Below, one piece after another: positions 6,273-52,438 of a stretch of DNA of 64,000 nucleotides. This DNA is from Xestospongia bergquistia (Eukaryota; Porifera; Demospongiae; Haplosclerida; Petrosiidae), in contig OZ014412.1 of assembly GCA_963965975.1 (NCBI GenBank), forward strand, positions 3,474,501-3,538,500, written 5' to 3'. The notes below the pieces were generated by a model that had not been told where the DNA came from, ran no database searches, and saw only the letters and a program-made list of their open reading frames with translations. A program made the translations under genes and the position numbers. Every line of letters starts with the position of its first letter. Positions within the stretch are counted from its first letter, which is position 1.

Positions 6273-9200
6273 ATGATAAAGTAAGAATTAATTATCCCGT
6301 ATACTGTATTCCTATATATTGTCTTTATGAAATAGTACAGCAAGCTTAAGGCTATTTGTGCTTTTCATTTTTACGTTTAATGTTGGTAAGTGTCTAGTCA
6401 TTAACCAAATCTGATCCTATATATAGGGTCTATTACTATGTTTTCATGACTATAACACTGCATGGTTGGTTAGGCCAACTTTTGACTGATTGTTTTTTTT
6501 TTAATAGTTGGCAGTATCTTCACTATTGTACCAGAGACACAATATGTCTACCGCAATCATAATGTAACATTTGAATGTGCTACTAATTTAAATGGATATA
6601 CTCTAACATTTTCTTATGGTGGATCTATAGCTGCAACAGTTAAACAAATTAATCTACGTGATGGTGGTATAAAGGTCTCAACTACCTTTACTGTAACTAG
6701 TACTAACAATGGTACTAGTATGAGATGTATAGCTGATGACAGTGTTAACACACTAATGTTCACCTCATTAGCCTATGTTTATGTTGAAGGTTAGTATAAT
6801 TATTATGTCAAATGTTATAACAATAATCTTTATAGGTCCTCCAGAAGCTGTCTCTAATCTCCAAGGATATCAGTTAGATCATTGTTGTATTGTGTTCTCC
6901 TGGTCTCCTCCATTCACATTAGGACAGTTAAGTGTGTGGTATCAAGTGACATTAAGTGTAGGAGAAGAAGTGATGTCATCAGAAGTAATCTATACTACTA
7001 ACTACACTTATTGTCCTATTGACCTAACTAATGGAGAATATAGACTTAATATTACTACAATCAATGGAGCAGGAACTGGAATGTGGAACAGTAACACTAC
7101 ATTATATAAAACAGGTATAATAATTGTTTTGTATCACAAATTATATACCCAGTAGTCTTAAAACTAGTAATGTTATTTGCTATGTATACAAGTGTGTGTC
7201 CATTTCTCATCATTTGATTTATTATTGTATTTGTGTTTTCAATAACAATTAAATATTACAGTAACCAATGAATTTATTAAGCTTATTATTAGTGCTGTGT
7301 CAATGGATGTAACTGATAATTGAGTTATGTTCTGAGTTAGCAGTGACTTTTGCTGTTTCACTGCAGATAATTATCTAGGTTTCAATACTATTTAAGTTGT
7401 TATTGCAATAATATTGTTGTTGTTATTACAAGTTAGCAAATATCAGATTCAATTATCTATACTTAAATCAATACAGTAAATTACTTAACAATTCTTAATT
7501 GATTTATATACTAATTCATAATTGTGTTCCTTTTCATAGATCAGATACTCAATACCTCCTATATCAATCACATGACTTATCGATTAAACAAAGACTGGAC
7601 TTTCCATTTTAAAATACCAGTAAGTGATCATATGATCTGTCAATATATCACATGACTTACTCTTATAGTCCACTCAACTCTGTACTCAACCTATTATCAA
7701 TATAAAAATGATGAGTTGTAATTTAAAGAACTCTTCTTATTGTTATAACAGTACTAATGTTACTATTATCACTGACTCTAGTGGAAGTAAGATCATTGTC
7801 TCAAATATAGATCTCCCTCTTAGAGAGAAGTTTACTACATGTACATTCTTGGAATATGAGAGTGAACAGATATTTCAAACTACTTCAGTAATTACCAGTA
7901 AGTATATTGTATGTGTTACATTATGTCATTACTGTCTTTGATAACAGGTAGTCATGATCTACAACAGTTAATTATAACTTATACATCAAATGATATATTA
8001 TGTCTTCAGTTTATCTTTGTTAATGGAAGTACAATAAATGAAATACATCTACATCTACAGTGTGATAATAGACTTCATCTTGTTGATAATGAAGATCTCT
8101 TTCGCAACAATCAACTTATCTTTACCAAATGTTTCAGTGATATACCTGCTAATAATTGGACATTATATGTATGTGATGGAACATTACCTAATGGGAGTGA
8201 TATGTGTTCTAATCCAGCTGTTACATCAACTAATATTAGTATCACTGGCAGAGTACCTATAGAACTTTCATCTACTATGATGCCTACTAGTACCTCTGTC
8301 AGTATTACGGTGTCTAGTAGTGTGGAAAGTAAGTATAGATACATAATATAATGATTATTGTATCTACACTATTACTGTTATTTTAGTTATTGTGAGTACA
8401 TTTACTACTACTGAACAAAAACTTACAACAGAGCAAGCCATAGGAATTGCTGTAGGAGTTGTAGTTATTATGACAATACTTATTACAGCTGTTATTGGTA
8501 TGTTAACAATATCTTATTGCTTTGTGTTAAAAAAGAAAAGTAAGCTAACAGATATAGTAGTTGATAATATAAATAACATTTCAGAAGAAAATACCACAAT
8601 TGTTCACAGAGATCGGATCAACAGCACAACACCTCTATATAATGATTCCACTAATTCTAAAAATTCAGGAGATAATTATGAAATGAATACTAATAAGGTA
8701 CTTGATTATAATAGTTAATATGTTATGATTTCTGTTCAGGATATACAAGAGAGACCTAAAACACCAACAACAGGACAAGATGTTACTCAACAGGTATATC
8801 ATAGTTAAATTTATAGTAATTATTATTGTGACTATATAGTCATCTCATTATGCTGATATCAAAACAACAAATGGAGCTAAAGCACCTGTTAAAGTACAAT
8901 CTGAGGTTAAATATTCTGAAGTTGACTTTGAATCCAGTAAAAAAACCTAACAAATTGTCCATTAATTATGTTATCTTTTCAGTGAAAATTAAATATCCCA
9001 CTCAAAGAGAACTCAAAGAGTTGGTCACATTAAAAGTGGCACATAAATGGTTTCCTATTGGTATTGGACTTGGTATGAGTGGAGAACAACTGGAAGAAAT
9101 ACGAGAAAATTCTGGTGATGTTCCTGACCGTTGCCTTCGTAACTTGTTCTATGAATGGGAACAGAATCCTCATGAAGACAAACCATTTACTTGGAGTACT

Positions 9201-9278
9201 CTCCTTAAAGTACTGAGATCTGTTAAAGTTGGAGAGAAATCTCTTGCAAATGAACTGCAAGAAAGTTCTTTGATGTGA
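6273..9278 (+). CDS. B1: Ig-FN3 single-pass receptor with ITIM pair and Death domain
   Basis: Predicted 688 aa in 11 exons: 6273-6280, 6336-6385, 6508-6789, 6836-7114, 7540-7619, 7669-7897, 7948-8328, 8387-8697, 8740-8793, 8840-8936, 8983-9278. Signal peptide 1-19; Ig about 20-113 (Cys in FEC and MRC); FN3 114-206 (FSWSPP, NGAGTG); a region with LNKDWTFHFKI at about 207-233; Cys-rich membrane-proximal region 234-436 rich in N-glycosylation sites; TM about 454-485 followed by KKK. The tail has SHYADI (Y562) and VKYSEV (Y583), both matching [ILVS]xYxx[ILV], then a Death domain (about 600-685) with LGMSGEQLEEI and the FTWSTLL helix. The ATG is chosen because the 8-base first exon joins in frame to a hydrophobic leader; the nearer ATG at 6327 meets TAG at once. 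B2 has an intron inside the TM region that B1 lacks. Known: ITIMs recruit SH2 phosphatases and Death domains recruit adaptors. A cell-surface immune or recognition receptor is inferred. Confidence 0.8.
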
Positions 9279-35904: not shown

Positions 35905-38900
35905 CCTAAAAAATATATTTTTTAATTGCAAGATAGTGTAATTAATTACTAACAAGAAATATCAAAAAATACTATATAATTGTTAACAATAGATATAATG
36001 GACCATATATCTAGCAATTTATGTAAAAATTTGTTTGCTAACATTTGATATGTAAGAAATTGTTCATCAATTAATTTTTTATTAAGTAATGTCTATTGGC
36101 TATGTAATGGCTATTTCTTTTCTTATTATATAGCTGTTCAGTTCATATTTACTCCATCTCCTAACATTGAAGTCTATCAACTAGCACATTACCAATGTTC
36201 AGTGGATCGTCCTGGTGTGAATATTACTTGGTATGTTAATGGAACAGGTTCTACTAACAAGGAGATTATTCAACTTGATATCATCACAAGTGGAGCAGCA
36301 TCTGCTGCTTCTAATCTTACAATACCTGGATATCCTCAATATAACAATACAGTAGTGAGATGTGATGCATTTGGATCAGTGATTGGTTATACCAACTTTA
36401 GTGAATCTACTCTGAGAATACAAGGTAACATACTCTCTAATATATGTCATTATATCTCCTCTCATTAGGTGAACTAGCTGCTGTCAACAACTTGATATGT
36501 CATATACAAAGTCAGTATATAAACTGTTCCTGGTCTCCTCCCTTCTCTCTGGCATCCATACCTGGTTATATCATCAATGTTACTTATAGAGGAGAACTAG
36601 TTACACAGAACACTACATCTTCTACAACATGGCAGTACAACTATTGTCTCAGTCAATTTGGTACCTATACAATTAGTGTAGCAGGTAATAACTCAGCTGG
36701 AGAAGGAAAAATAAGTACTACATCAGTTAAAGTACCAGAAGGTAAGTAAAGTAGTTACTTTTAAAATGATTATCAATGATATGTATTCATAGACTTGATT
36801 ATTAACTATAATGTGACTCTTGATAAGTACATTAGAAGTATTAACTTTTGGTAAACAATACAGTTATTTTAAACTTACTAAAATATTTATTAACAATAGA
36901 TAACATTACTGAATTTAATGTGACTCTTAAAAGATTATCAAATAGTACTTACCTGATCAGTTATATCATTAAGGTATGATAACTTTTTATTAATTGTTAT
37001 TATTATATTCAATATTCTTTTAGACTATGTATTCTATACAGCCATCATTAATATTAATCAAATTAATTAGTAATACTGAAACAATTGTATCCATGTCTAA
37101 TGTAATTGATGATATTGTTGGAAATACTTTAATGGGAAACGTAAATATTAAAATAACAAGAAGGCAAAAATGGAAAATGACTTTGATGTTGAAATATGAC
37201 TGCTCATCTTTAACAGCTAATTCACCAACTAAAATAATTTGTAAGTTTATTTAATTATATATTATTTCTATTAATAATTTTCATTAGCTACATTTGATAT
37301 TCAAAGAGGTTATGTAGCATTCATGAACTCAACAACTGGAGAAGTTTGTTTTACTTGTTATTTTCTTGAGGGTAGTCAATCACAAGGATGTTATATTGAA
37401 TATAACTCACTTATAACAGACTACTACAGTGGTAATATTACCATAATGAGAACATCAGTAGATACCAGTACTGCTAGTAAATGTGTAACAGGAATATATA
37501 CCAGTAACTATAATTTGACATTTTATGACATTGATCAAAGTAATGAAGTGTATTTAAATGAGTACGCTGTAAATCTAGCTGATATAACTATTAGTGGCTT
37601 GCCTGGTCTGACTTCCTCCACATCCTTCACAAGTGAAACTATGTCATTATTGACATCATCGTTTCCATCACCAACTGTTATGTCAAGAAGTAAGTCACTA
37701 TTATTAATATCACATTCAGTAAATTTCTCTCAATAGCAAATAGCTCCTTACAACTTAAAATTGGTATGTTGATCTGTTATGTATGTATGTACAATGTTTC
37801 TATCATTTAATTGTAGTTGCTGCAGTGATCCCAGCTATCATTATTATCGTGATTATTACATTTGTACTATTGTTAACTTTAATTAAATACAAACATCTAA
37901 AAGAGACTTCAATTAGTAAAAGTAAGTTCAAAGATATAGTTATAAATAAATACATATACAGAAATTTTATCAGATAAAAAGGGATCATGTGATATTGAGC
38001 TTGAGGCTAATGAAGTAAGTTCTATATTATCACTATTATATATAGTCTTCTTTATATATTTGTTATCATCAGATTATTGTATTGTTTAGTTTCACATGTA
38101 ACAGCTATTGTGTTATTGATATTGTATTATTGTGATAATGTATTAATGTAATGTATAAAAAGATCAATTAGTAAAGTGTTATGTAAAATTATATAACAAC
38201 ATTATAATAATGATTGTTAAATTATAAAGACAACTTTTTATAACATAACTGTTTAGATATCATCAACTCAGTCTCTTAACCAGATCAACTATACTGATGT
38301 GACTCCATTACCTAATGGTCCTATTGCTCCTCCTACTCTCCATTCTACAGTACCGTATAGTACAGTAGTACACAAGACATCAGAAATTGGAGCTCTGCAT
38401 TCAATAAATGGACCATCTAATGAGGAACATACCAGACTTAATCATAATGTACATGGTAGTATAGAACTTTATGACCATACTCAACATCCTTCAAAATCAA
38501 CATCACATGTAACAGCTATTGTGTTACTAATATTATATTATTATGATAGCCTATTTATTAATGTAATGTTTATAAAGATCAATTATTAAAGTAATATGGA
38601 ATATTATATAACAATCATTATAACGATTGTTATATTATAAAGACAGTTTGTTTTAGTTCCTATATCATAACTTTTTAGATATCATCAACTCTTAGTCAGA
38701 TCAACTAACAGAGTAGTGTTTATTAAAAGTCTCAGTATTTCATAATATATTAATAATTATGTAATGAAATGACCGTAGATTGGTTAAATCAATCAATCTA
38801 CAATTTTTAATTTTTACAGTGATATAAGTAATTGATTAGTGTGGTAATTAATTATATCTATAAATACTGAATGTTTTTTATTTCTGTTACACATCTAGAT

Positions 38901-39585
38901 ATTAACAACTATTCAATCTAACCAGATCAACTATACTGATGTGACTCCATTACCTAATGGCCCTATTGCTCCTCCTATTCTCCAATCTACAGTACCATAT
39001 AGTACAGTAGTACATGAGACACCAATATCAGAAGCTCTGCATTCAAAAAATGGACCATCTAATGAGGAACATACCAGGCATAATAATCATATTGTACATG
39101 GTAGTATAGAACGTCATGATCATACTCAACATCCTTATTCTCATACTTCAACACCTATTCCACCTATGCATTCTACACTACCTACTAATGGTAACATGAC
39201 AAGTTATATATCATCACTTGACAGTCAGTACTCTACTTTGTGTAATAAAACAAGTGATAAATTAATTATTAAGAAGACAACAGGTCAGTAAACTTTACTA
39301 TATAGTAGATATTATATTATATTTATTATATTAGAGTTAACTCATAATGATCTAGTTACTTATGTTGCTCCACATGTAACTACAAAACTACAAGAGATAG
39401 GTACTGCCCTAGCACTAACTCCATCTGAACTTGATGACATTGAACAGAATCATCAAGGTATGACTGGTGTGTTCCAACTCTGGTATGAGACTAAGAGACG
39501 TCCATATACCTGGGACACATTGTTAATGATATTGAGATCACCAGCTGTAAATGAAGCTGAACTTGCTGACCAGCTAACTCAGTAA
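35781..39585 (+). CDS. A2: Ig-FN3 receptor with three ITIM-like motifs and Death domain
   Basis: Predicted 710 aa in 11 exons: 35781-35835, 36134-36424, 36469-36741, 36900-36973, 37024-37240, 37288-37689, 37737-37763, 37817-37921, 37962-38014, 38899-39283, 39335-39585. Signal peptide 1-18; Ig about 19-115 (QCSV, VRCDA); FN3 116-206; beta-rich 207-303; Cys-rich domain 304-400 (CFTCYF, GCYIEY, SKCVTG); Ser/Thr stalk; TM about 447-470. The tail has INYTDV (Y511), VPYSTV (Y533) and SQYSTL (Y610), all fitting the ITIM consensus, then a Death domain 628-710 (LTPSELDDIE, LWYE, YTWDTLL). One decayed exon (36793-36850) and one duplicated tail exon (38257-38500) are skipped in this model. A start codon 20 bases after a TTTTAG acceptor suggests a 5' leader intron. 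An inhibitory/death-signalling surface receptor is inferred from motifs. Confidence 0.8.
35846..35902. repeat. (AT)n microsatellite in A2 intron 1
   Basis: Roughly 57 bases of AT repeat lie just after the signal-peptide exon of A2, inside the first coding intron. Confidence 0.9.
36793..36850 (+). other. Decayed duplicate of A2 exon 4
   Basis: Begins after a proper acceptor and reads like exon 4 (NVTL motif), but its only donor (gtaaac at 36851) leaves the frame out of phase with the next exon, and reading on meets TAA. The same decayed exon is present in A4 near 55746, so the decay predates the A2/A4 split. Confidence 0.6.
38257..38500 (+). other. Duplicate A2 tail exon lacking a donor (possible alternative last exon)
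   Basis: After a good acceptor (TTTAG, 38256) it codes INYTDV and VPYSTV and continues in frame to about 38490. There the sequence turns into a copy of the preceding intron, so no 3' splice partner exists. It would read on to TAA near 38589. A third acceptor-plus-30-base scrap is at about 38678-38706. Use of this exon would give a tail with ITIMs but no Death domain. It may equally be skipped. Confidence 0.6.
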
Positions 39586-45454: not shown

Positions 45455-47563
45455 TTAATATTTTATCACACCATATGCAGCACATGTGTTCATCTCTAGT
45501 TCAGTAGTAGGTAGTGTATTAGTGATTATATCAACATTCTCATATTGAGGTATATCTTGATGAAGGACAGTATCTGTTAGTGGATTAACAGGAGATGTTA
45601 CAGTACCTACAATGAATAATATCATTTACAGACTATTCACACTCTTAGTATTACCTTGTCTCATTGACTTAGTTCTTCTTATCCAACATATCACTATATA
45701 TACTAGTACAGTACATATTAGTATTAGAACTGACACACCCACTAGACTACCTATATTGATAATATAACAAGTAATACAGTTATATTATGACCATAAGTAA
45801 TTATTATTTTAATTTGTGTCTTTTTATATTTATTGACAGAAACTCATGAGATCTAGTTTATGTATATTGACTAGCAAGATTAATTATTAATGAAAATAAT
45901 ATCATTACCTCCTAATATACCAGCAGTTATTGTGAACTTTTCATTAAATTGTGCATCATCTATATAACATATATAGAAATATAATAATGATAACAAATGT
46001 ACTAATGATTACTTACTAGTCAAACAGTCACATGTTCCTGTAGTAACTGTAACCATGGAAACAGAACATGATTCAAAAGATATAGAAGTTGTTTCTATTG
46101 CAGTAATAGTGATATTAGTAGATGATATTGCCCAGTTATCTGATAATGTATCCTCCTCTTCAATATCATATACATACATATTATATATACCACTAGGTAG
46201 ATCATATGTACATCCAATTACTGTACTACTACATACTGGAGAACACATCAATGATATGTTACTACTGTAGGTAGAGGAAGTTAATGAAATAAGACAACCT
46301 TTAACAATAGCTCCTCTTATAAAACGACAACTGTAACATGTTCTACCAATATTACTTAGGTCATTATATAGAGTTGCTTCACTAACATCATATGTACCTA
46401 ATGAATGAACAATGAAACATAATACAAACATTGTTTATTGTGTTAGTATCATAACATCTTACTTAGTTTGAGTTGATCAGTTATATTAACAACTAGTCCA
46501 CTTGAGTAAAACAACCTTATTGTTGTCTTCCATTGTTTGTTCTCAGTTAAATTCAGATTTATCAAAACAGTTATTATATCTCCATCTGTTATTATTCTAT
46601 TATTATCAACTGATATAGTAATGTTAGAGTTTGTTGAAAACTGAAGTTCCAAGAAACTAATACATTCTAGAAAGAGCTATAAAATAATTGAAATATTGTC
46701 TATATACAAATTGTCTTACCACATTATATATTGTTATTTTTAAAGACCAATCACTTATTGATCTAGTGAGAGTTGTTGTCAAATTATACATACCTACAGA
46801 AAATTAATGATATTTCTTACATGTTTTTAATGTACTTAATAATGTCAGTATTTGACTTGCTACCTCTGGTACCAGTGTAGTACTTGTCTCTCCTTCTCCA
46901 GCTGAATTATTACCAGCTACACTAATTGTATAGTTACCAAATTGACTGGGACAATACTGCCATGTTGTAGAAGATGTAGTGTTCTGTGTAACTAGTTCTC
47001 CTCCATAAGTAACATTGATGATATAACCAGGTATGGATACCAGAGAGAAGGGAGGAGACCAAGAACAGTTAATATACTGACTTTGTATATGACATATCAA
47101 GTTTTTGACAGCAGATAGTTCACCTAATGAGAGGAGATATAATAACATATATCAGAGAGTGTGTTACCTTGTATTCTTAGAGTAGCATTATCAAAGTTAT
47201 TATAAAGATTGCCATCAACAAACCCTGAAGCAAGACATATTATTTCTGTATTGTTATATTGAGGATATCCAGGTATAGTCAGATTAGACTGTTGTGGTCC
47301 TGTTCCAATTGTAACAATACCAAGTTGTGTAATATTGTCATTATCAGAAGTTGTTCCATTAACAAGCCAACTAATAGTCACACCAGTATGATTCACTGAA
47401 CATTGGTAATGTGCTAGTTGATAGACTTCAATGTTAGGAGATGGTGTAAATATGAACTGAACAGCTACAACAAATACTGTCAAATAGTCTAATACTACTT
47501 GTTATATTACTTACCTTCGCATGAATATAATTGTATCCACAGCAGTACTATTAAAGTGAACAT
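45455..47563 (-). CDS. C1: short-tailed Ig-FN3 receptor with YENV tail, divergent partner of A3
   Basis: Predicted 538 aa in nine exons (reverse): 47563-47515, 47464-47168, 47123-46821, 46793-46720, 46676-46463, 46397-46017, 45959-45909, 45750-45655, 45606-45455. Signal peptide 1-16; Ig about 17-115; FN3 116-200; exon 3 then extends past the usual donor to a GTAAGA at 46820, adding about 15 residues while restoring phase. Beta-rich region 217-312; Cys-rich domain 313-439 (CYSC, KGC, CSPVC, IGC); TM about 459-480, then CWIRRTKS. The 50-residue tail has PQYENV (Y510; pYxN fits Grb2-type SH2 ligands) and AAYGVI (Y533). There is no Death domain. The Ig exon is almost the same as in A3. By analogy with paired immune receptors it may be the non-inhibitory partner; this is inference. 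Confidence 0.8.
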
Positions 47564-47841: not shown

Positions 47842-50676
47842 ATGTTCATCCTGTCAGTATTGTCTGTTGTAGTAATCTTTTGTTCCAGTATTTCAGGTAT
47901 GATCTAATTTTCACTGTAAGAATATAATACAATAACTACTATTAAATATCATATCGTTATTTGTTCACAAAAATATAACTTTCATTTTTTGAAGCTAATG
48001 ATTTAAAAGAATGAATACTGTTCATCAGTTTATTATGTAAGTCTTTCTCTGCTGTGTAGCTGTTCAGTTCATATTTACTCGATCTCCTAACATTGATGTC
48101 CATCAACTAGCACATTACCAATGTTCAGTGAATCATACTGGTGTGACTATTAGTTGGCTTGTTAATGGAACAACTTCTGATAATGACAATATTACACAAC
48201 TTGGTATTGTTACAATTGGAACAGGACCACAACAGTCTAATCTGACTATACCTGGATATCCTCAATATAACAATACAGAAATAATATGTCTTGCTTCAGG
48301 ATTTGTTGATGGCAATCTTTATAATAACTTTGATAATTCTACTCTGAGAATACAAGGTAACACACTCTCTGATATATGTCATTATATCTCCTCTCATTAG
48401 GTGAACTAGCTGCTGTCAACAATTTAACATGTCATGTACAAAGTCAGTATATAAACTGTTCTTGGTCTCCACCCTTCTCTCTAGTATCCATACCTGGTTA
48501 TATCATCAATGTTACTTATGGAGGAGAACTAGTTACACAGAACACTACATCTTCTACAACATGGCAGTATTGTCCCAGTCAATTTGGTAACTATACAATT
48601 AGTGTATCTGGTAATAACTCAGCTGGAGAAGGAGAAATAAGTAATACATCAGTTGTAGTACCAGAAGGTAAGTGATGTAGTTATTATATTTTGTCAACTA
48701 CTTGATACTAATAGATATAATTACTAACTATGATGTGACTCTTAAAAGATTATTAAATGGCTCATACTTGGTCAATTATATTGTGGAGGTATGATAACTT
48801 CTCTTATATAAATATCATATACTTTTATATATACTTTATTTAGACTGTGTATTCACTACAGCCATCATTAGTATTTATCAATATAACTAATAGTACTGGA
48901 ACTTTATTTACTGTTGATGGAAGTGTACATGATTTTGTTGAAAATAATTTAATTGGAGATATAAGTATTGACATGACTGGTAGACAAAAATGGAGTAGTG
49001 TTTTGACTTTAAAATACAATTGTAGATCTCTTAATTCATCAGTTAAACTATTTTGTAAGTTTGTTTAAATCATATTAATTGTATTAATATTTTTATTAGC
49101 TATATTTGATGTACAAAATGGCAGTTTAACAGAGGAGTCTGGACAGGTTTGTTTTACTTGTTATTTTCTTGAGGGTAGTCAATCACAAGGATGTTATATT
49201 GAATATAACTCACTTATAACAGACTACTACAGTGGTAATATTACCATAGTGAGAACATCAGTAGATACCAGTACTGCTAGTAAATGTGTGACAGGAATAT
49301 ATACCAGTAACTATAATGTGACATTTTATGATATGGATTATAACAATGTACCATATACTACTGAGTATGCTGTAAAACTAACTAATCAAACTGTTAGTTG
49401 CTTCCATATTGCAATTCAAACTTCCTCCCCATCACATCCATCTTTTACAACTCAAAGTGTGTCATCATCATTTTCATCACCAACTAATAGTGAGTCACTA
49501 CTTTATTGTCACAATTACATATATTTTCTACAGCAGCAACTAGTTTCCTACCACTTAAAATTGGTATGTAGATCTATTTATGTAGAGACATTTTTATTTC
49601 ATTTAAAAATAGTTGCTGCTATGATTTTAGTACTAGCAGCTGTTATTGGTGTGATTATTATATTTATAATATGTTTGATATTGATTATATTCAAACACAT
49701 AAAAAAGACCCAAAATGGAAGAAGACAACAAGGTAGTTTCAAGACAATAGTTACAAAATGAACATATTTCAACATCACATATACAGAAAATATATATAAT
49801 GAAATGGGACCACAAGACATTGAACTCGAGGTTAATGAGGATGTAAGTTTTATATTATCATAATTATTATACAGAAGTTTCTGATTTAAATATAGTATTA
49901 CCATATTAATTACATTTTGACATATAGCAGATTTATAGTCCAAATGTTGAGTAAGATTAGTAATTGTAAATATCACATGTTATTTTTCAATTTAGATATT
50001 AACAACTCAACCTAACCAGAATAACTATACTGATATGACTACATTACCTAATGGTCCTATTGCTCCACCTACTTTCCTTTCTACAGTACCATATACTACA
50101 GTAGTGCCTAAGACATCAAAAATTGGAGCTTTGTATTTAGTAAATAGACCATCTAATGAGGAATATTCTAGACTTAATCATAATGTACATGCTAGTACCC
50201 AAATTTATGATCATACTCAACATCCTCATTCTCATATCTCAACACCTATTCCACCTATGTATTCTACACTACCTACTAATGGTAACATGACAAGTTATAT
50301 ATCATCACCTGACAGTCAGTACTCTACTTTGTCTAATAAAACAAGTGATAAATTAGCTATTAAGAAGACATCAGGTCAGTAAACATTACTATATAGTAGA
50401 TATTATATTATATTTATTATATTAGAGTTAACTCATAAAGATCTAGTTACTTATGTTGCTCCACATGTAACTACAAAACTACAAGAGATAGGTACTGCCC
50501 TAGCACTAACTCCACTTGAACTAGATGACATTGAACAGAATCATCAAGGTATCACTGGTGTGTTCCAACTCTGGTATGAGACTAAGAGATGTCCATATAC
50601 CTGGGACACATTGTTAATGATATTGAAATCACCAGCTGTAAATGAAGGTGAACTTGCTGATCAACTAACTCAGTGA
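47842..50676 (+). CDS. A3: Ig-FN3 receptor with ITIMs, YxxM motifs and Death domain
   Basis: Predicted 709 aa in 11 exons: 47842-47896, 48060-48356, 48401-48667, 48715-48788, 48844-49054, 49100-49489, 49534-49563, 49613-49732, 49787-49842, 49996-50374, 50426-50676. Signal peptide 1-18; Ig about 19-117 (QCSVNHTG, IICLASG); FN3 118-206; beta-rich 207-301; Cys-rich domain 302-400; stalk; TM about 442-468 then KHIKKTQNGRRQQ. Tail tyrosines: NIYNEM (Y485) and NNYTDM (Y511), both YxxM as in PI3K p85 ligands; VPYTTV (Y533) and SQYSTL (Y609), ITIM consensus; EEYSRL and PMYSTL, looser YxxL. Death domain 627-709 with LTPLELDDIE, VFQLWYE, YTWDTLLMIL. Exon 7 has a tandem CAGCAG acceptor that could drop one residue. 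AATAAA is about 100 bases after the stop. It is transcribed away from C1. Confidence 0.85.
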
Positions 50677-52438
50677 CTCTAGTGATACATGTGTGTGTTG
50701 GTTATGTGTTAGTGTATATTCTATTAGATTTAATATAGAAATTATCACTATTTTGGTTCATTTGAATTATAATAATAAAATTTTTGGCGACACTCGAAAA
50801 TTAAGATTGATCAAAGTAAACGATATAATGTTTTTAATATATAAATCTTATAATATAGACTACAATAGTATATGATACAGTAGAGGATTATATAGATAGT
50901 ATAATTATATATGACAATTGCCACAAATCATATTAGCAAAAAAATCACTGACAATGGTATATAATAGTAATGTAATATAATATAATATTATATAATATAG
51001 ATATGACATTGTAATAATAAATGTGTTATTGATCTATTCCTTTGTTTATATAACACTGTAAGTTCTAAGAATTTAATGTTATAACATCTAATTGTATATG
51101 AAGAGATATATACAATATGCTGGAATATAGTAATAATCATATTAATATGTCATTATAATATTATATATCTAATTTATTGACAAACAACCATTCAATATGG
51201 TTCTCCATTACAAATACAACTTCAGTAACATATGATCAATTGTTATTAACATATCTAGTTCCCAAACACAACCTGTTGTATATGAACAATAGTTGATTGT
51301 TATGACATTATTAGTATCAAAAGATAGAGGATATATTGAATTCATGGAAACTTATTATTTTAATTTAATATCAATAATAAAAAAAGTGTATGTCTATAGT
51401 GTATAATAGTAGTATATGAGAATCAAATAGACAGTAGTACTGCCCATATATAATAATATTATTTAGTTATATTATAGATAAGCACTAGTTGATGACAAAA
51501 TACAACTTTAATATCACTTTGATATATCAGTTATTTGTTTACTGTAGTGTAATGATAATGTCTTATATATAATGATCACTAATAGATTTAGGAGTTCATT
51601 TTATTATAATAATTATATTATTATATTCTCTTAAAACTAATTAATATATTAATATACCAATGTACCGATATATTAATGCACCAATATACTAATGTACCAA
51701 TGTACTAGCGTGTCAGTGTATCAATATACTAATGTACCAATGAACTAATATACCAAAGTACTACTGTCCTAATGTACAAAATGTATTAATGCACCAATAT
51801 ACTTTTGTACCAATGTACCAATATACATTGGTACATTGATACCAATGTACATTTATACAATAATATACAATAATACTAATATACCAATATCTAATAATAA
51901 TTAATCGTCTCCTGTCAGCTTTTAAAAATAAAGTGATTTATGATTTGAAAGAAGAGAACTATAGGCTATGACAGATTAGTTGTAATGAATTCTTTCCTTC
52001 TAGACAGTCCATCTTGACCACATATAGATGTGATTAGATTTTGTTTAATAGTATACCATTAATTTTAGTAATAATAGTATACCATAAATTTTATAGACTA
52101 CATGGTCTATATAATCTATAACTATACAAAGTATGGACATTGAGTTGTTGTCATATTTTGTACTTTGAGATTTATTCTAACAGCTTGTAGTTTACATTTT
52201 TTGTCATCATACTAGTTCTTGAATTCTTGATTTTGTGAACATGTCACTATATTGTTAAGACAAGTCAATATTAATTAAGTTATCTCTATCTCTGTCAGTT
52301 AGAACAACTCTCTTACTGTGATATTCTACTTTCAGTACTCATTTATAATAATTGTATGTGTATTTGATCATTCTGACGTCAATATCAACACAGTAACCTC
52401 TATGATGTTAACAATAAATGAATGATTGTGTTTCATAC

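Follow-up and report, generated by a model that had tools for sequence, protein, structure and literature searches.

Clustered sponge genes with ITIM-consensus tyrosine motifs and a predicted C-terminal Death domain

We analysed a window, meaning the whole stretch of 64,000 nucleotides at C2:3474501-3538500, within a sponge genome of 146 Mb in 21 contigs. The window contains three GT-AG-spliced, phase-consistent gene models, designated A3, A2, and B1. A3 comprises 11 exons from the ATG at 47842 to the stop ending at 50676 and encodes 709 amino acids. A2 has 10 exons, counted from the Ig exon, and its intron phases follow one another as they do in A3; B1 has 9, likewise counted from the Ig exon. 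Their features, in window positions, are as follows.

47842..47896, plus strand: A3 exon 1, start codon and signal-peptide-like stretch, read from sequence
48060..48356, plus strand: A3 exon 2, Ig-like domain; Cys/Trp pattern read from sequence, no Pfam call
48401..48667, plus strand: A3 exon 3, FN3-like domain; Pfam fn3 E 0.0083, below cut-off
48715..48788, plus strand: A3 exon 4
48844..49054, plus strand: A3 exon 5
49100..49489, plus strand: A3 exon 6, putative membrane-proximal extracellular domain
49534..49563, plus strand: A3 exon 7
49613..49732, plus strand: A3 exon 8, transmembrane segment, read from sequence without a predictor
49787..49842, plus strand: A3 exon 9, membrane-proximal cytoplasmic part with NIYNEM
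49996..50374, plus strand: A3 exon 10, tyrosine-motif tail exon
50020..50037, plus strand: A3 NNYTDM, degenerate first motif of the tandem
50086..50103, plus strand: A3 VPYTTV, second ITIM of the tandem
50314..50331, plus strand: A3 SQYSTL, C-terminal ITIM
50426..50676, plus strand: A3 exon 11, predicted Death domain and stop
36134..39585, plus strand: A2 gene, Ig exon to stop, 10 exons
38899-39283: A2 tail exon
38926..38943, plus strand: A2 INYTDV, first ITIM
38992..39009, plus strand: A2 VPYSTV, second ITIM
39223..39240, plus strand: A2 SQYSTL, C-terminal ITIM
39335..39585, plus strand: A2 exon for the predicted Death domain
6508..9278, plus strand: B1 gene, Ig exon to stop, 9 exons
8840..8936, plus strand: B1 tandem-ITIM exon; SHYADI 8843-8860, VKYSEV 8906-8923, tyrosines 21 apart
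8983..9278, plus strand: B1 exon for the predicted Death domain; Pfam Death 15.9 bits, below cut-off

The 3' end of B1 agrees with those of A3 and A2, the tail exon being entered in phase 0 and the Death exon in phase 1. Indirect evidence, read from the gene models, suggests that the ectodomain, tail, and Death exons are spliced together in all three genes. The first-pass annotation had described three independent gene models; each architecture does combine ITIM-consensus motifs with a predicted Death fold, but A3, A2, and B1 are paralogues. Head to head with A3, on the minus strand (window 45458-47501), lies a neighbour whose Ig exon is 96% identical to that of A3. Its downstream frames contain a TM-like stretch and QYENV, which we take to be a Grb2-like YxN site, and no Death exon was found among the frames read there. 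A short tandem-like repeat, with units such as 'caatatactaatgtac', is located at window ~51640-51860.

For the annotated Ig-FN3 ectodomain, Pfam placed an FN3-like match in A3 below its cut-off and made no Ig call; an Ig-type Cys/Trp pattern is present, but the Ig fold was not confirmed. The model of the Ig-like domain reached a pLDDT of 63.2, and the 50 Foldseek matches listed for it included Siglec-10, VCAM-1, CD22, and ICAM-2 together with non-Ig beta sandwiches, none at E < 0.001. At E <= 1, Pfam detected neither TSP1, ZU5, nor TNFR repeats in A3.

For the C-terminal exon of A3, the structure check set beforehand yielded a predicted six-helix Death fold; in the comparison made with this model, absence of a family from the results excludes none. 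The profile check was less clear, as whole A3 gave no Death call and the Pfam Death scores shown, that of B1 included, were all below cut-off, whereas the fold was seen in the predicted model. Across 26 Death members, Pfam also named three minor families, each in 1-3 members. When the PDB was searched by sequence profile, four of the 8 matches were FADD chains, and no E value fell below 0.49. On the basis of the model, the cytoplasmic tail is predicted to end in a Death domain. In four Death domains from outside the cluster (L081-L084), inspection by eye revealed no tandem ITIM exon lying in frame ahead of the Death domain (0/4). An overlapping frame at L081, with SVYLSV and LPYIHL close together, was taken for non-coding.

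Behind a transmembrane segment read from the sequence, A3, A2, and B1 all carry cytoplasmic motifs of the ITIM consensus used here, [ILVS]xYxx[ILV]. VPYTTV and SQYSTL were correctly assigned to A3, but its own first tandem motif, NNYTDM, is degenerate. To judge conservation within subfamily A, we aligned 17 of 30 tails, 13 having been dropped because of stops or shortness. Strict ITIMs occurred at the first site in 12 of 17 tails, at the second in 15, and at SQYSTL in 15, with the tyrosine itself kept in 15, 17, and 17, respectively. At six other tyrosine columns, strict ITIMs were found in none (n=17; QQYQSS, a seventh, lies outside that count), and tail tyrosines outside the ITIM consensus were also well kept. 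Within A, the ITIM core positions were not significantly more conserved than the other columns (P 0.27). The two ITIMs in the A3 tail alone gave P 0.058 against chance, the tail exon as a whole showed a dN/dS of 0.80 (17 sequences), and its 3' half is very similar between copies. In A2, four tyrosines of the A consensus are replaced by histidine (ALHSKN, EEHTRH, ERHDHT, and PMHSTL) and the three ITIM tyrosines are kept. NIYNEM and NNYTDM of A3 (window 49787-50037) form two YxxM-type sites ~26 residues apart, presumably fitting the PI3K-binding pattern. Because these two sites could bind PI3K, the output of A3 may differ from that of its paralogues.

Subfamily B was examined with B1 and six further genes (L075-L080). 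As annotated, SHYADI and VKYSEV of B1 lie 21 residues apart in the tandem exon, and each of the six others has two tyrosine hexamers upstream of the Death exon with a spacing of 22. A separation of 20-25 residues is common where a tandem ITIM engages the two SH2 domains of an SHP phosphatase. The strict consensus is matched by the second hexamer in 7/7 genes and by the first in 4/7, the other three having P at -2; two of these three, shuffled alone, gave chance-level ITIM counts (P 0.25 and 0.19). SQYSTL was not seen in the B tail exons read. Five of five further B loci tested (six fetched; the boundary of L078 is ambiguous) have an AG/GT-bounded tandem exon that continues in phase 1, like the A genes, into an open Death exon. 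The Death frame of L080 is short.

The Death domains of A and B are only 29-33% identical, and the motif is conserved between these diverged subfamilies, in contrast to the non-significant result inside A. In post hoc tests on four of ten listed sequences (A2, L076, L075, and B1; chosen by us and hand-aligned with one gap), 10 of 28 columns were class-invariant, including 5/6 ITIM core positions (P 0.013). Without the varying first -2 position, all five core positions were class-invariant (P 0.0026), and the comparison of hexamers with spacer gave P 0.039. Across these four representatives, the +3 positions and the second -2 position were class-invariant. L075 and L080 are not independent, because they are identical over the same 28 residues.

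A genome-wide search with the A3 tail exon returned 67 matches, counting the query; every one falls within C2:2.866-4.375 Mb. The A3 Death exon gave 141 matches with 150 of 515 candidates scored; the best 80 all lie inside this receptor region (C2:2.87-4.37 Mb, ~1.5 Mb), and weaker ones from the same scoring are also found on other contigs. With the B1 Death exon we obtained 99 genome matches, the best 12 all on C2. The concentration of tail- and Death-exon matches in one region bears out the annotated clustered and expanded family. Among 30 fetched tail loci, 11 pair an open tail match, in phase, with an intact Death exon, which is a minimum for this set because some donors may escape the donor pattern; 19 failed the intactness test owing to stops, a missing Death exon, a shortened match, or an unrecognised donor. 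Matches at C2:4.07-4.10 and 4.135-4.16 Mb repeat at an offset of ~65.4 kb, which would fit either a recent segmental duplication or a stretch duplicated in the assembly. A first look at the whole genome gave 983 Death-domain candidates; 150 were scored and 150/150 matched, a very large Death repertoire.

Between paralogues of this single genome, no exon-by-exon diversifying selection was seen (dN/dS 0.27-0.65; tail 0.80). The values were 0.63 for the Ig exon (7 sequences), 0.38 for FN3 (11), 0.59 for the exon-5 part (13), and 0.52 for the exon-6 domain (19). Death exons gave 0.47 in A (24 sequences) and 0.27 in B (6).

Candidate signalling partners are also encoded in the genome. Searches returned 194 PTP and 81 SH2 matches, and among those listed are ~9 SH2-SH2-PTP loci (L069-L073): C7:8.318 Mb, C3:0.916 Mb, six in C3:1.265-1.284 Mb, and a candidate at C6:0.200 Mb. 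One member of the six-gene array has an internal stop, and 7 of the ~9 loci are one long open frame. Pfam identified two SH2 domains and one PTP domain in 6/6 ORFs tested, with HCSAGIGRT in five and QCSNGIGRT in one. The best PDB match of L071 is SHP-2 (E 1.1e-196); among the best 120 of its 2419 protein matches, the top one stands at 99%, Amphimedon queenslandica, the best named one, at 77%, Ephydatia and Dysidea at 61%, and, mixed with these, arthropods at ~53-61%. These matches make a demosponge the most likely source of the genome. Humans have two SHP-type genes; an "expansion" of the SHP type rests on the C3 array. The SHP-type genes sit on other contigs than the receptor cluster and may serve other receptors. 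At C6:1.62-1.70 Mb (L074), an array of SH2 matches lies in frames of ~400-500 aa, one of which, when tested with Pfam, comprised an SH2 domain and a tyrosine kinase. The genome contains 99 caspase-family matches; three are located inside the receptor region (C2:4222258, 4235580, and 4266034).

Taken as a whole, we favour, with moderate confidence, the explanation that A3, A2, and B1 encode type I surface receptors of a sponge family that has expanded in tandem, and that these act as threshold receptors, a tandem ITIM docking SHP and a Death domain being united on one chain. The Ig/FN3-like ectodomain would bind some cell-surface or microbial ligand. Receptor clustering would then allow Src-type kinases to phosphorylate two ITIM tyrosines ~22 residues apart, and the paired phospho-ITIMs could engage the two SH2 domains of an SHP-type phosphatase together. 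At the C terminus, the Death domain would nucleate or join a Death-fold adaptor complex. Phosphatase docking and Death assembly on the same chain may set a threshold, with phosphatase restraint as the putative default; the sign of the output is likewise conjectural. This explanation draws on the phase-consistent models, the constant hexamer spacing in A and B, the A-B invariant core, and the predicted Death fold. The dN/dS of the Death exons, the ~9 SHP-type loci, the SH2-kinase ORF, and the caspase-family matches are further evidence. Against it we count the within-A test, the tail dN/dS, the NNYTDM of A3, P at -2 in the first B motif, the lack of SQYSTL in the B tail exons read, the sub-cut-off Pfam Death scores, the location of the SHP genes elsewhere, and the 19/30 loci that are not intact.

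It is possible, though we think rather unlikely, that the tyrosine motifs serve as YxxPhi sorting signals or as SH2 docking sites of mixed type instead of ITIMs, the tail setting trafficking or adaptor/PI3K binding and the Death domain being the sole immune output. Every ITIM found also fits YxxPhi, the two YxxM sites of A3 fit the PI3K pattern, and the non-ITIM tail tyrosines are well kept too; the constant spacing, the class invariance of the +3 and second -2 positions between A and B, and the several SHP-type genes in the genome speak against this.

The UNC5 netrin receptors invite an adhesion or guidance reading. They share with the A3 architecture one transmembrane segment, and UNC5C has Ig and Death domains; UNC5 also has ZU5 and TSP1, neither of which Pfam found in A3, and to our knowledge it is not a clustered family. 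According to PMC6080411, tyrosine-phosphorylated UNC5C recruits SHP2, described as possible negative feedback. A receptor working in this way, with SHP binding as feedback and without an immune or allorecognition role, would agree with the lack of exon-wide diversifying selection. We regard it as unlikely, as so many copies within 1.5 Mb, a large number of them broken, look more immune-like and as ZU5 and TSP1 are missing from the Pfam results for A3. Finally, it is improbable that the A tail is relaxed sequence kept alike by recent duplication or gene conversion, its ITIMs being by-products of a tyrosine-/serine-rich exon: the tail dN/dS, the within-A result, the similar 3' halves, and the P value for A3 alone would fit, but A2 lost four non-ITIM tyrosines yet retains three ITIMs, and conservation extends between A and B.

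Each half of the threshold receptor thus favoured has precedents. That ITIM and Death receptors are separate families in vertebrates is mostly true, with UNC5C-SHP2 as one exception. Fas and TRAIL-R have a Death domain behind a TNFR-type ectodomain, a repeat not found in A3. According to PMC10967194, TRAIL-R, a second exception, binds SHP-1 through its Death domain and has no ITIM. As described in PMC12065747, the Botryllus FcoR of the fuhc locus are clustered type I Ig receptors with long ITIM tails tied to allorecognition; unlike the sponge genes, they have V- and C2-type Ig plus sushi domains, hemITAMs, and some SH2 domains, and "death domain" occurs 0 times in that text. Hydractinia Alr, an IgSF complex of 41 members with ITIM/ITAM-type motifs, differs in its V-set and I-set Ig domains, and no Death domain is mentioned in the available text of PMC12065747 and PMC11999971. 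Both likenesses are by description only. Sponge Ig-TIR receptors and an Ig + CARD gene of Dysidea avara likewise link Ig to an intracellular signalling domain, but that domain is TIR or CARD; no Death-plus-ITIM tail is mentioned in the available text of PMC6208332 and PMC12909245, and "itim" occurs 0 times in either.

Among the titles and abstract starts listed from the open-licence literature, we found no report of ITIM and Death domain in a clustered receptor family, which fits the earlier claim that it is undescribed; the combination appears new. Searches in other species with the A3 protein (7996 candidates scored, none at E 0.001) and with B1 from the transmembrane segment to the end (1338 candidates, none at E 0.01) gave no homologue, which does not show absence because such a search can retrieve only proteins already predicted across their exons that have 5-residue words in common with the query.

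PMC12065747 links clustered Ig receptors with ITIMs to allorecognition in Botryllus and Hydractinia; it states that sponges, cnidarians, and ascidians do not share conserved candidate allorecognition proteins and that ITIM/ITAM signalling is where the systems of cnidarians and ascidians converge. An ambitious and, in our view, improbable extension sees in the 1.5 Mb region a histocompatibility-type complex of the sponge. Every receptor would then carry its own brake (tandem ITIM) and trigger (Death domain) and choose tolerance or cell death on contact, and the SHP-type phosphatases would have expanded alongside as dedicated readers. If the tandem-ITIM sponge receptor cluster holds, it is a candidate to bring Porifera into the ITIM/ITAM convergence in allorecognition, and the Death domain fused to it would connect recognition directly to cell death.
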